Shown piece by piece: positions 1,125 through 55,184 of a stretch of 64,000 nt of DNA (positions are counted from its first letter, which is position 1; each line of letters starts with the position of its first letter). A program made the translations under genes and the position numbers. The stretch covers positions 1,675,789-1,739,788 of the forward strand of contig NZ_JH711481.1 of the NCBI RefSeq assembly GCF_000269805.1. Direction: 5' to 3'. Under the pieces are notes generated by a model. The model had not been told where the DNA came from. It did no database searches and saw nothing but the letters and a program-made list of their open reading frames with translations. Origin of the DNA: Actinomyces massiliensis 4401292 (GTDB taxonomy: Bacteria > Actinomycetota > Actinomycetes > Actinomycetales > Actinomycetaceae).

Positions 1125-1223
1125 GACCGATCTCGGCGCGGAACTGGACCGATCTCGAGCCGGAACTGGACCGATCTCGGCGCGGAACTGGACCGATCTC
1201 GGCGCGGAGTACGACCGATCTCG
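1125..1223 (+). repeat. 22-bp tandem repeat array A (5 copies)
   Basis: The core GACCGATCTCG recurs at 1125, 1147, 1169, 1191 and 1213 with an exact 22-bp period. Between cores the sequence varies (AGCCGGAACTG or GCGCGGAACTG). The same family appears at 34824-34922 (opposite orientation) and 35496-35660. It sits in the convergent gap between the ABM gene and the solute-binding lipoprotein. The unit length is not a multiple of three, so translated ORFs through it are not credible. Confidence 0.9.
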
Positions 1224-33959: not shown

Positions 33960-34784
33960 TCAGGCCCCGAGGGCGCGGTCGCGGGCGATCGCCGCCCGCA
34001 CCGCCTCGATCACTGCGGGGGAGAAGCCCGCCCCCTCCATTGCGATCAGACCCGCCACCGTCGTCCCGCCGGGGGAGCACGCGGTGTCGAGCAGGTCCGC
34101 CAATGTGCGGCCCGTCCCGTCCTCGGCTCGACGCTCCGCCTCGCGGCGGACCATGGACGCCGATCCGAGCAGCGCCTGAGTGACGATCTCGACCGCCCGC
34201 GCCTTGGGAAGTCCGGCATCGACACCGCCTCGGGCGAGTGCCTCGATGAACGTGAAGATGAATGCCGGAGAGGAGCCGGCCAGGGCTGTGAAAGCCGAGA
34301 AGTCCTTCTCGTCTAGGACTATTGTGCGGCCGACCCGGCCCATGAGGGAGGCCGTGAGCTCCAGGTCCTCCTCGCTCGCCGCCGTGCCCGCCGTCAGGGC
34401 CGTCATGGATTCGCGGACCGCCGCCGCCATATTCGGCATGGCCCGCACCACGCGTGTGCCGTCCGGCAGCAGGGACTCCAGTCGCGTCGTCGTCAGCCCC
34501 GCCGCAATGGAGACGACCAGGGGCTTCCGGGCGGCCAGGGCATCCTGCAACGGTGCCAGTACGACGGGGATGACATGCGGTTTGACCGCCAGGATCACGA
34601 CGTCGCTCGTACCTACGAGCTCCTCGGCGCTGGGGGCGAGACGCACGCCGGTGCGAGCGGCCAGCGCCGAGGCCGAGTCGTGCGCACTCCACACAGTCGT
34701 GCCGCCACTGTGCCCGGAGGCGATCAGACCGTCCACGATCGCGCCCGCCATATTTCCCGCACCGATGAAGCCGTAAGTCGTCAT
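33960..34784 (-). CDS. proC: Pyrroline-5-carboxylate reductase
   Basis: A 274-residue NAD(P)-dependent oxidoreductase. The N-terminal Rossmann site is GFIGAGNMAGAIVDGL; later come VILAVKPHVIPVVLAPL, VVSIAAGLTTTRLESLL, RAMPNMAAAVRESMTAL and the C-terminal dimer domain FTALAGSSPAFIFTFIEALARGGVDAGLPKARA with the conserved ...LLDTACSPGGTTVAGLIAMEGAGF. It reduces pyrroline-5-carboxylate to proline, the last step of proline synthesis. It converges with the ABC pair (2 bp gap) and is transcribed away from the repeat-rich spacer at 34785-35689. Confidence 0.96.
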   Translation of the reverse strand: MTTYGFIGAGNMAGAIVDGLIASGHSGGTTVWSAHDSASALAARTGVRLAPSAEELVGTSDVVILAVKPHVIPVVLAPLQDALAARKPLVVSIAAGLTTTRLESLLPDGTRVVRAMPNMAAAVRESMTALTAGTAASEEDLELTASLMGRVGRTIVLDEKDFSAFTALAGSSPAFIFTFIEALARGGVDAGLPKARAVEIVTQALLGSASMVRREAERRAEDGTGRTLADLLDTACSPGGTTVAGLIAMEGAGFSPAVIEAVRAAIARDRALGA

Positions 34785-34823: not shown

Positions 34824-34922
34824 CGAAATCGGTCGGGTTCCGGCTCGAGTTCGGTCGGGTTCCGGTTCGAGTTCGGTCGGGTTCCGGTTCGAGATCGGTC
34901 CGGTTCCGCGTCGAGATTGTGG
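34824..34922 (-). repeat. 22-bp tandem repeat array B (5 copies)
   Basis: Copies of CGAGATCGGTC or close variants start at 34824, 34846, 34868, 34890 and 34912 with an exact 22-bp period. This is the reverse complement of the GACCGATCTCG core of arrays A and C, so array B is inverted relative to both. It lies 40 bp upstream of proC. Confidence 0.85.
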
Positions 34923-35137
34923 TGTGTCAGGGCGTCTGGGGTGGGATACACCGAACGCACCACCGATCTGCCATCACACCCGACGTTCGCGTATGTCTGG
35001 GGCTGTGGGTGGTAGGTCCAGGGGTCCGGTGGGTTTGTTCCCCGATACCCGCGCATGCCCGGGTGATGGGTGTTGCACATTCGCGTGTGCTCCGCGTTGA
35101 CGAAAACCGCGGAATCATGCGGAATAGTAAGGTTGCT

Positions 35138-35204
35138 TGTGGCCGTGGTCGGGCTCCCATGTGCGCAGTCCCCCCTGACTGCACATGGGAGCCCGACCGC
35201 CACA
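35138..35204. other. Large hairpin/cruciform inside the 34.8-35.7 kb spacer
   Basis: A perfect 18-bp inverted repeat (35147-35164 and 35181-35198; arm GGTCGGGCTCCCATGTGC) is extended outward by TGTGGC/GCCACA (35138-35143, 35199-35204) past a 3-nt bulge, and inward by GCAGTC/GACTGC. No T-run follows on either strand. The motif CTCCCATGTGCG recurs as CTCCCATGTGCGAC at 35270-35283. The rest of 34923-35495 holds no frame with the codon bias of neighbouring genes. Confidence 0.75.
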
Positions 35205-35381
35205 GACAGTGATCATCGGAAAGGCGCGTAATTCCGGCAAAAACCAGTCCTCGTCCCGCAAGAGCCGTGCTCTCCCATGTGCGACACCGCAGACAACCGT
35301 GTCCATCGGTCGGATAACCGTGTCCGCGGTCGCTTGACGCACGACATCGGGGCGTCCCATCTCTCTGCGAGATCGACTTTT

Positions 35382-35420
35382 TCGAACGAGGTCGACGGTG
35401 GCGCCGTCGACCTCGTTCGA
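35382..35420. other. Perfect 17-bp hairpin in the spacer
   Basis: TCGAACGAGGTCGACGG (35382-35398) pairs perfectly with 35404-35420 across the 5-nt loop TGGCG. On the plus strand a run of five T lies before the stem (35378-35382), not after it, so it is not a standard intrinsic terminator for either strand. Confidence 0.8.
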
Positions 35421-35495
35421 GAATGTCTATGTGGACGGGTCCTGCAGTACGCTCCCCGCTCCAAGACAAGGCACCATCGCCTCGGTGCGGAAGTG

Positions 35496-35660
35496 GACCG
35501 ATCTCGAGCCGGAGTGCGACCGATCTCGGTGCGGAAGTGGACCGATCTCGAGCCGGAGTACGACCGATCTCGAGCCGGAGTACGACCGATCTCGAGCCGG
35601 AGTACGACCGATCTCGAGCCGGAGTACGACCGATCTCGGCACGGGTTTCGACCGATCTCG
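35496..35660 (+). repeat. 22-bp tandem repeat array C (8 copies)
   Basis: GACCGATCTCG starts at 35496, 35518, 35540, 35562, 35584, 35606, 35628 and 35650: eight copies with an exact 22-bp period, the middle ones identical (AGCCGGAGTAC between cores). It ends 30 bp from the stop codon of the GH13 gene. It is in the same orientation as array A and inverted relative to array B. Confidence 0.92.
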
Positions 35661-35689
35661 GCGAAAGGGGCGGGGCGGGGGCGCGGGGC

Positions 35690-37183
35690 TCAGGTCAGGA
35701 CTGCCCAGCCGAGCGGCGGCAGGACGACGCCGTCGCCCTCGGGGCGCGGGGGCGGGGCGTCGTACGTCGAGGCCAGGACGAGCTGGTGGCCCGCCGTGGG
35801 CAGCCAGGCCTCGGTCTCCTCCAGGCTGAGGACGAGCACCGCCTCATTGTGCTCAGCATTCTCGTGCTCGGGCGAGCGCGCCCGCATGCGCAGGGACAGC
35901 ACCGTGTTGCCCAGGTGAAGGGCCTCGACCTCGGCGTCGTGCAGCCACGGCAGGCGGCGGCGCACTCCGATGAGCTCCTGGTGCAGGGTCCGCACTGCGC
36001 CGCCGTCGCGCTCCTGCGGTGAGGCGGGCAGCTCGGGGCGGATGGCGTCGTCCCCGCCGAGTCGGTCCTCCTTGATGGCGCGCAGGCCGTCCTCGTCGCC
36101 GTAGTAGATCGCCGGCGTCCCCGGCAGGGTCATGAGCAGCGCCAGGGCGTGGGGCAGACGGCGCGCATCGGGCAGTTGGGAGGCGATCCTGGAGGTGTCG
36201 TGGTTGCCGATGAAGGTCCATGGCACGAAGGTGGCGAGCAGATCGGCATTGCGCCGCAGGGTCCAGTCCAGCTCGTAGAAGTTCGCCTCCGCCAGGGAGT
36301 GCCAGATCGCCTGCCACAGCTCGTACTGGGTCACGGAGTTCATGCCCGAGGCGGTCACGATGGCGGCGTAGTCTCCGTGGATGACCTCGCCCACGATGTA
36401 GACCTGCGGATGGTCGCGGCGCACCCGGGGGAGCACTCGCGTCCAGAAAGCCGGATCGACGGCGTAGGCCGCATCCAGTCTCCAGCCGTCCACGCCGCGC
36501 TCGCACCAGTGGGTCATGACATCGGCGACCAGGTCCACCACGGCCTCGCAGGAGTGGTTGAGCTCGGGAAGCCAGTCCTGGCCCTCGAAGCGCCTGTAGT
36601 CGGGCGCAATGCCCGGGGCCCATGTTTCCCCGGTTTCTCCGGTTCCCCCGGCTTCTCCGCCTGTTTCGCCGCCCGCCCCGTCGCCTCCCGGCCACGTCAG
36701 GTGGAACATGGAGGCCTCGCGGGAGTGGGGGCCGGCTTCGGGCAGGGCAGCGAAGGCCGGGTGGTCGATGCCGACGTGGTTGAAGACGCCGTCGAGCATG
36801 ACCCGCACCCCCCGGGCGTGGGCGGCGTCGATGAGGGCGAGCAGGTCCTCATTCGTGCCCAGTCGGGGGTCGAGCCGCATGTGGTCGATCGTGTCGTATC
36901 CGTGCGACATCGAGTGGAAGACGGGGCCGAGCATGAGCACGTTGCAGCCGAGCTCGACAAGGCGGTCGAGCCAGGGCAGCAGGCGGCGCAGGCGGTGCTC
37001 GGCCGCCATCGCCCCGGCCGGTGACGAGGGATCGTCCGGGTCGCCCTTCGGACACAGCGCCGGAGCGCCCACGGCGCCCAGGGGGAAGACGTGCCAGGCG
37101 ATGGCGTGACGGACCCAGTCCGGTTCATTCGGAGCAGTGGAGCGGAGGGCGGAGGACTCGGGCGCGGCGTCGTCGGCGTGCAT
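35690..37183 (-). CDS. Alpha-amylase family (GH13) glycosidase
   Basis: A 497-residue GH13 (beta/alpha)8-barrel enzyme. Conserved regions: I VMLDGVFNHVG, II GWRLDAAYAV with nucleophile Asp237, III YIVGEVIH with acid/base Glu266, IV FIGNHDTSR with Asp329. There is no signal peptide, so it is cytoplasmic and probably acts on maltodextrins, glycogen fragments or cyclodextrins. A Gly/Glu/Thr repeat insertion (GGETGGEAGGTGETGETW) sits near residues 171-188 between barrel regions. The exact specificity cannot be read from the sequence. Monocistronic, with array C just after its stop. Confidence 0.9.
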   Translation of the reverse strand: MHADDAAPESSALRSTAPNEPDWVRHAIAWHVFPLGAVGAPALCPKGDPDDPSSPAGAMAAEHRLRRLLPWLDRLVELGCNVLMLGPVFHSMSHGYDTIDHMRLDPRLGTNEDLLALIDAAHARGVRVMLDGVFNHVGIDHPAFAALPEAGPHSREASMFHLTWPGGDGAGGETGGEAGGTGETGETWAPGIAPDYRRFEGQDWLPELNHSCEAVVDLVADVMTHWCERGVDGWRLDAAYAVDPAFWTRVLPRVRRDHPQVYIVGEVIHGDYAAIVTASGMNSVTQYELWQAIWHSLAEANFYELDWTLRRNADLLATFVPWTFIGNHDTSRIASQLPDARRLPHALALLMTLPGTPAIYYGDEDGLRAIKEDRLGGDDAIRPELPASPQERDGGAVRTLHQELIGVRRRLPWLHDAEVEALHLGNTVLSLRMRARSPEHENAEHNEAVLVLSLEETEAWLPTAGHQLVLASTYDAPPPRPEGDGVVLPPLGWAVLT

Positions 37184-55112: not shown

Positions 55113-55184
55113 TTTCCCGAGCCTCCCGAGCCTCCCGAGCCTCCCGAGCCTCCCGAGCCTCCCGAGCCTCCCGAGCCTCCCGAG
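55113..55184 (+). repeat. 9-bp tandem repeat (8 copies)
   Basis: Seven perfect copies of CCTCCCGAG (55122-55184) preceded by one degenerate copy (TTTCCCGAG, 55113-55121). It lies in the non-coding stretch before the ileS leader. Confidence 0.9.

Follow-up and report, generated by a model that had tools for sequence, protein, structure and literature searches.

Three intergenic loci in a 64,000-nucleotide stretch of the Actinomyces massiliensis 4401292 genome (contig NZ_JH711481.1, positions 1,675,789 to 1,739,788), referred to here as the window, carry tandem repeats with a 22-bp period that share an 11-bp core. The question raised by these loci is whether such repeats are a product of random drift or, as the original prediction had it, an array for a sequence-specific DNA-binding protein or a mobile tandem element.

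Repeat arrays in the window

Array A (1125..1223, + strand) consisted of five exact cores, GACCGATCTCG, spaced at 22 bp and was located in a convergent gap between an ABM-domain gene (709-999, +) and a solute-binding-protein gene (1420-2685, -). Array C (35496..35660, +) contained eight exact cores at the same spacing, lay 29 bp off the 3' end of an alpha-amylase-domain gene (35690-37183, -) and had an outer flank (35661..35683, +) composed of GCGAAA followed by a G-rich tract. Array B had been counted as five copies. Four cores at 22 bp were recognisable (34824..34900, -), of which one was exact (GACCGATCTCG) and three were variants (GACCGATTTCG once, GACCGAACTCG twice), and the fifth and innermost unit, CCACAATCTCG (34912..34922, -), was degenerate, with four mismatches to the core. 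This array was situated 5' of a proC-like gene on the - strand that, read by eye, starts at 34784. All three arrays were intergenic with respect to genes called by a small purpose-written Markov script, in which gene starts and short genes are uncertain. The 22-bp arrays at the three loci are thus real, but the broader claim that all copies lie outside genes held for the arrays and not for a single exact core (2175-2185) that falls within a called gene. The window had 21 core matches with at most one mismatch; the expected number was 4.7, and none of 100 shuffles gave more than 12.

Two further features flank array A. A strong GC-rich hairpin without a T-run (1034-1078, by eye) immediately followed the ABM-domain gene upstream of the array, and a 26-bp tandem repeat (1270-1397; 4.9 copies, 96%), between the array and the next gene end, had no relation to the 22-bp family.

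The repeat family in the genome and the genus

The whole genome of A. massiliensis contained 726 core-N11-core pairs (362 + 364, at most three mismatches), while the reversed pattern, used as a control, gave 0 core-to-core pairs at 22 bp. Extrapolation from the 82 arrays and 260 pairs found in a 464-kb sample, the window and 20 stretches picked around listed arrays, indicated ~230 arrays in the genome. The first stretches from A. massiliensis, A. gerencseriae and A. gaoshouyii were mostly chosen for their arrays, which inflates array frequencies and, to a lesser extent, orientation counts. The A. massiliensis sample included 7,419 N bases across 8 stretches, with N in 4 of the 58 array-bearing gaps.

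The window arrays were thus neither the only copies nor confined to one species, since several species carry them. With at most two mismatches, the exact core pattern matched 13 of 59 genomes, including A. massiliensis and one genome from outside the genus. The generic motif ACCGNNCTCG was found in 16 of 200 genomes of the family: A. massiliensis, 14 of the 36 other members of the genus, and one stray in another genus. At least 5 pairs were present in 10 of the 14 other Actinomyces carriers, and the reversed generic motif had 2 matches in the 200 genomes, both in one genome of another genus. Among the matches listed, the carriers included A. gerencseriae, A. israelii, A. denticolens and A. gaoshouyii. 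Many Actinomyces genomes matched no array with either the exact or the generic pattern; no 22-bp family was seen in samples of G015 (120 kb) and G007 (80 kb), and an 80-kb sample of G029 had a few diverged 22-bp copies. The IleRS identity of array-rich genomes ranged from 96% (the nearest relative) to 77% (G017), with array-free genomes interspersed. The middle dinucleotide of the core was lineage-specific: mostly AT in A. massiliensis and A. gerencseriae, GT in A. gaoshouyii, A. denticolens and G033, TT in G017, AA or AT in G005, and AC or AT in G030. A phage origin was rejected, as viral contigs (IMG/VR) had 0 matches to the exact degenerate pattern. Among the papers listed by text searches of the open-access literature, none gave an account of this 22-bp repeat.

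Anatomy and conservation of the repeat unit

The spacing between neighbouring cores was rigid. For cores with at most one mismatch at a distance of 12-40, the spacing was exactly 22 bp in 248 of 249 cases in A. massiliensis, 44 of 44 in A. gerencseriae, 33 of 33 in A. gaoshouyii and 16 of 17 in G033; at distances below 60, the corresponding values for G017 and G005 were 18/19 and 12/12. The sole clear departure among the sampled species was G030, where 15 spacings were 22 bp and 9 were 23 bp (n = 24; stretches L191, L192, L240 and L241), so the 22-bp spacing is not absolute.

The unit had been described as a core that is kept and a remaining 11 bp that drift among a few forms. In A. massiliensis, positions 2-7, 9-11 and 15-17 of the unit were nearly fixed and positions 8 and 18 mostly so, while positions 12-14 and 19-22 varied among a few linked states. 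The description was therefore accurate for the core and too simple for the remainder, where positions 15-18 (CGGA) come close to the core in constancy. Each 22-bp unit has two blocks, ACCGATCTCG at 2-11 and CGG(A) at 15-18, with centres ~10 bp apart.

The arrays had 2-9 units in A. massiliensis (2-5 in 67 of 82) and 2 or 3 in A. gaoshouyii. The next position of the 22-bp register past either array end was, on average, near random, and a degenerate unit was kept at the inner end of 8 of the 82 A. massiliensis arrays. The gene-facing flank, (G/A)CGA followed by a G-rich tract, was common to A. massiliensis and A. gerencseriae, weaker in A. gaoshouyii, and different from the sequence after array-free stop codons.

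The two blocks were also conserved at orthologous sites. For 10 array pairs in 8 orthologous gaps, the core identity was 285/297, a value inflated by core-based detection, and the identity of positions 15-18, which is free of detection bias, was 63/68. The seven other spacer positions were identical at 40 of 119, compared to 0.41 for random A. massiliensis-relative spacers. Neutral drift of the whole unit would not yield two kept blocks amid a scrambled spacer. Since the spacers at shared sites were no more alike than random, independent insertion into the same gap is possible.

The rigid spacing, the two kept blocks and the lack of RNA structure described below suggest that the arrays are selected as targets of a protein that recognises DNA in its double-stranded form, probably by reading one face of the helix and cooperatively. 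The exact spacing and the selection on two sequence blocks strongly support the earlier view that the arrays are not random drift.

Outward-facing pairs and the segments between them

In gaps with two arrays (n = 44, nine species sets, only arrays with called genes on either side, none counted twice), the arrays faced outward in 43 cases, in the same direction in 1 and inward in 0. Four further gaps had three arrays, with 0 inward-facing pairs. The inner lengths of the outward pairs recurred: 5 bp (4 cases), 16 bp (2), 107-109 bp (6) and ~355 bp, among others.

A dispersed inner module of ~240 bp, R3 (35061..35298), was located between arrays B and C. The ends of R3 are inverted (GTGTTGCACA...TGTGCAACAC), and a hairpin lies in its interior. 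Nine aligned copies from A. massiliensis, all of them beside arrays, had a mean pairwise identity of 0.77. BLAST pieces of R3 were found in the A. massiliensis and A. israelii samples only, and Rfam identified no feature of the window, R3 included, at the gathering threshold. At 0.77 identity, R3 had 0.19 indel events per 22 bp per copy pair; since R3 gathers indels, the rigid array spacing would be unexpected without constraint. A second dispersed repeat, R2 (35368..35439, ~72 bp), forms a hairpin whose arms contain CGAGATCGAC, which resembles the array core. There were 36 BLAST pieces of R2 in 554 kb of A. massiliensis (the strands of the palindrome may each count), 2 in 80 kb of G029, and none in the other ten sampled sets.

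The 107-109-bp module matched a lacI-type gene of the same genome (Pfam; L061 9997-10998) at its 3' end. Its copies, each between outward arrays, were at L061 9746-9852, L060 11622-11729, L066 12133-12240, L067 524-630, L070 10129-10237 and L071 2482-2590. The gene had one match at E <=1e-90 in A. massiliensis and orthologues in A. gerencseriae and A. israelii. At the left join of the module, the A. massiliensis gene sequence is one base off the core. At the right join, a degenerate array follows the stop codon, and a two-unit array in the same orientation was seen by eye at this site in the A. gerencseriae orthologue. The simplest reading would be that an array-bounded segment captured the end of a host gene and then multiplied. 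In the A. israelii and A. gerencseriae orthologues, the left-join stretch departs more from the core than it does in A. massiliensis, so that the repeat may instead have converted the gene, as opposed to capture at a core-like site that was already present.

By eye, the genes enclosed by distant outward pairs looked ordinarily chromosomal, and no autonomous element was seen among them. The A. massiliensis sample had no recent multi-copy IS, that is, no repeat longer than 200 bp at 95% identity save one within a single gene, and the 60-mers shared within the sample were runs of N. A few comparisons with array-less relatives, made by eye, gave no sharp element ends or target duplication.

A proposed REPIN-like family with arrays as its ends

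The explanation preferred here, with a probability of about 0.5, is a REPIN-like family whose ends are putative protein-binding arrays, whose outward pairs are copied about the genome, and whose arrays at gene boundaries are kept by selection. The arrays would be runs of sites for a candidate sequence-specific DNA-binding protein. Within one unit, about one turn of the helix would separate the two recognised blocks, and successive units would be two turns apart, so that the bound molecules would be aligned on one face of the DNA and could bind cooperatively. Outward pairs would constitute the ends of short non-autonomous segments with an inner part of 5, 16, ~108, ~355 bp or more. These segments would be copied around the genome by the same protein or a partner, much as REPINs are by an end-reading transposase. 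Arrays would then be left at gene boundaries, mostly just past stop codons, and retained by selection, presumably because they serve the host.

As described by Bertels and Rainey (PMC3116915), REPINs are intergenic, high-copy and non-autonomous inverted doublets, in which short conserved ends enclose an inner part that is less conserved and has a few preferred lengths. The family described here agrees with that description in being intergenic, high-copy and non-autonomous, with outward doublets and preferred inner lengths. It differs in ending with an array of direct repeats in a 22-bp register, while the end of a REPIN is a single REP. The doublet is also less dominant than the 43 outward pairs suggest, since single-array gaps (117) outnumber two-array gaps. 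The A. massiliensis arrays (3-6 units, n = 56) did not behave as hairpin-forming units, their folding being at the level of shuffled sequences; in A. gaoshouyii, hairpins do arise where inverted pairs lie close together.

The fate of single arrays may be a further difference. The view that pairs are the living unit and single arrays their remains fits poorly, because the singles were not more degenerate in three of the four species sets. In A. massiliensis, the mismatches per core were 0.211 in single and 0.341 in paired arrays (p = 0.02), the unexpected direction. The values for A. israelii were 0.40 and 0.53 (0.41 vs 0.53 with one repeat dropped, p = 0.2), and those for A. gerencseriae, 0.39 and 0.38, did not differ significantly. 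Only A. gaoshouyii, with 0.333 in single and 0.121 in paired arrays (p = 0.048), followed the expected direction.

Three candidate partners were considered. The RAYT-family transposase domain, Y1_Tnp, was present in 0 of 49 genus genomes, A. massiliensis included, while 5 of 14 control genomes were positive. The ends of Tn7/Mu-type transposons are tandem transposase-binding sites, and the arrays resemble them in that the element ends carry repeated, here putative, protein sites with a comparable period. In contrast to those transposons, a matching transposase domain, Mu-transpos_C (TnsB/MuA-type), was found in only one of the 49 genus genomes, G010, where the generic motif gave no array pair; the 14 control genomes gave 0 matches, so that this search had no positive control. 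Both classes were rejected as partners on these counts. The lacI-type regulator was considered as the array-binding protein because a fragment like its end rides in some of the segments. It was rejected because four array-rich genomes (G004, G017, G033 and that of A. gaoshouyii, G036) lacked orthologues (E <=1e-90), while G015 and G022, where the search for array pairs found none, had them. A. massiliensis has 3 rve genes, two without an array in the locus. The third, at L267, had four arrays in its 3.3-kb locus.

The two alternatives in the original prediction therefore both stand in part. A DNA-binding array is favoured indirectly by the spacing and the blocks, and a mobile element by outward pairs that bound dispersed segments, one with a gene end; neither a binding protein nor a mobilising enzyme was found in this analysis. 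If the REPIN-like reading is right, such a family can exist without a RAYT, so that another enzyme or process spreads the arrays, and the end of an element would be a putative protein-binding array able to survive alone. With a rigid 22-bp register and species dialects, the putative binding protein is directly fishable, the relatives in which no arrays were found are natural controls, and the arrays give a handle on gene-boundary upkeep in human-associated bacteria.

Placement at gene boundaries

Among 154 arrays with a called gene on both sides, from seven species sets, overlap with a called gene exceeded 20 bp in 6 and in none of the 76 from A. massiliensis, a number reduced from 82 by the requirement for flanking genes. 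Arrays were enriched in convergent gaps, which held 51 of the 154 (baseline, 76 of 426 gaps), compared to 88 in co-directional gaps (baseline, 251) and 15 in divergent gaps (baseline, 99). In A. massiliensis, the median distance from the gene-facing array end to the gene was 45 bp at 3' ends and 76 bp at 5' ends.

An alternative explanation of this placement is that the arrays are primarily host boundary elements, which at gene ends would insulate transcription or act as roadblocks to it. A protein filament, orientation-specific in its action, would halt RNA polymerase just past the stop codon and avert the collision of convergent genes, and the dispersed segments would be a by-product of recombination between arrays. 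Several observations favour this possibility: 1) in the array-chosen A. massiliensis sample, arrays were present in 18 of 40 convergent gaps of at least 60 bp, 31 of 122 co-directional gaps and 4 of 45 divergent gaps, 2) single arrays in co-directional gaps faced the 3' end in 40 cases and the 5' end in 22 (p = 0.03), 3) in three species sets, a pyrimidine-rich tract (mRNA sense) separates the gene from the array, 4) in the 17 of 34 reciprocal best pairs with 60-bp gaps in both A. massiliensis and A. israelii, 3'-end arrays were shared in 5, confined to A. massiliensis in 2 and to A. israelii in 0, and absent from both in 10 (p = 0.003), and 5) single arrays are well conserved in A. massiliensis. 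Sal-box terminators of Pol I likewise have a pyrimidine-rich tract and then tandem oriented protein sites after the gene, so that there is a likeness, by analogy only, to the pyrimidine-rich tract and tandem oriented putative sites seen here.

However, unlike the case of the Sal box, most sampled gene ends had no array: a sense array was found at 48 of 247 sampled A. massiliensis 3' ends (gap of at least 60 bp) and an antisense array at 19. About a third of the pooled arrays (52/154) face a 5' end, and the many Actinomyces genomes without a match argue against this explanation. The 3'-end positions, compared for genes inside the sampled stretches, were weakly shared with A. gerencseriae (3 shared, 8 and 4 in one species alone, 34 in neither; p = 0.18) and not with A. 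gaoshouyii (0 shared, 4 in A. massiliensis only, 2 in A. gaoshouyii only, 12 in neither). Whole orthologous gaps, compared only for genes inside the sampled stretches, had arrays in both A. massiliensis and A. gerencseriae in 3 cases, in A. massiliensis alone in 5, in the relative alone in 3 and in neither in 33; the corresponding counts were 5, 1, 0 and 12 for A. israelii and 0, 5, 0 and 6 for A. gaoshouyii. The undecayed single arrays in three of four sets, the enrichment in convergent gaps and the 3' bias keep the boundary explanation alive, while the array-free majority of gene ends and the turnover of positions between species weaken it. It is accordingly regarded as a tentative alternative, doubtful in its present form.

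A version that combines both functions, a genus-specific boundary system, is rather unlikely. A candidate protein would polymerise on the arrays from the gene-facing end in a strict two-turn register and insulate or end transcription. The protein and the core would have co-evolved into species dialects (ACCG-AT/GT/TT/AA/AC-CTCG), and the arrays would double as the ends of mobile segments, whose mobilising enzyme would belong to neither of the two tested classes.

RNA structure, tandem duplication and chromosome-wide signals

The arrays might instead act at the level of RNA, as hairpins that serve as intrinsic terminators or stabilise mRNA. This proposal is favoured by A. gaoshouyii, where many array pairs are 4 bp apart and form long hairpins and where the 40 nt after the stop codon had a median folding energy of -27.4 if an array was present (n = 12), compared to -19.9 if not (n = 57). 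In A. massiliensis, however, 56 arrays of 3-6 units had no excess of folding over shuffles (mean z, 0.03 sense and 0.86 antisense), and 3' ends folded equally with and without arrays (-17.6, n = 37, and -17.5, n = 137). T-runs, which together with a hairpin mark an intrinsic terminator, were rare at these 3' ends (2/37 with arrays, 14/137 without). RNA structure was rejected as the basis of the arrays because those of A. massiliensis fold like shuffles, and an RNA-level role is judged improbable.

Many of the A. gaoshouyii array pairs are near-perfect 70-bp palindromes with a variable 4-nt centre (L079, L080, L082-L084 and L086), and their arms are alike between loci.

Tandem intergenic repeats of variable unit number are familiar in actinobacteria from the MIRU/VNTR loci of mycobacteria, and the arrays could be functionless slippage products of that kind. 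In each of the 8 shared gaps, every array of the relative had an A. massiliensis counterpart in the same orientation, often with a different number of units (8 vs 2, 6 vs 2 and 5 vs 4; equal elsewhere, for example 3/3 and 2+2/2+2), so that unit number varies at fixed loci, here between species. Within A. massiliensis arrays, spacers two units apart were alike at 7.95 of 11 positions (n = 111), compared to 6.22 for neighbours (n = 174) and 6.52 at random; because alternate spacers are the more alike, arrays grow partly by 44-bp steps or duplications. Neutral slippage is nevertheless very improbable as a full account, as it does not agree with the two blocks kept in a short unit while the rest of the spacer is scrambled, the near absence of spacings other than 22 bp, the outward pairing, or the like unit architecture with species-specific cores across the genus.

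A signal that operates across the chromosome, for DNA uptake or segregation for example, would fit the high copy number and the species-specific variants but is scarcely credible, since DNA uptake sequences are many single copies over genes and gaps, whereas 464 kb of A. massiliensis had 4 exact cores outside arrays (2 genic, 2 intergenic), and since 14 stretches sampled from C1:1-380 kb had no strand polarity (33 +, 28 -). Replichore polarity was rejected on the same balance of strands, for stretches within these 380 kb.

One further tandem repeat was observed in the window, a perfect 9-bp repeat, TCCCGAGCC, of 7.8 copies (55115-55184) that lies in the long gap 5' of the gene for IleRS.
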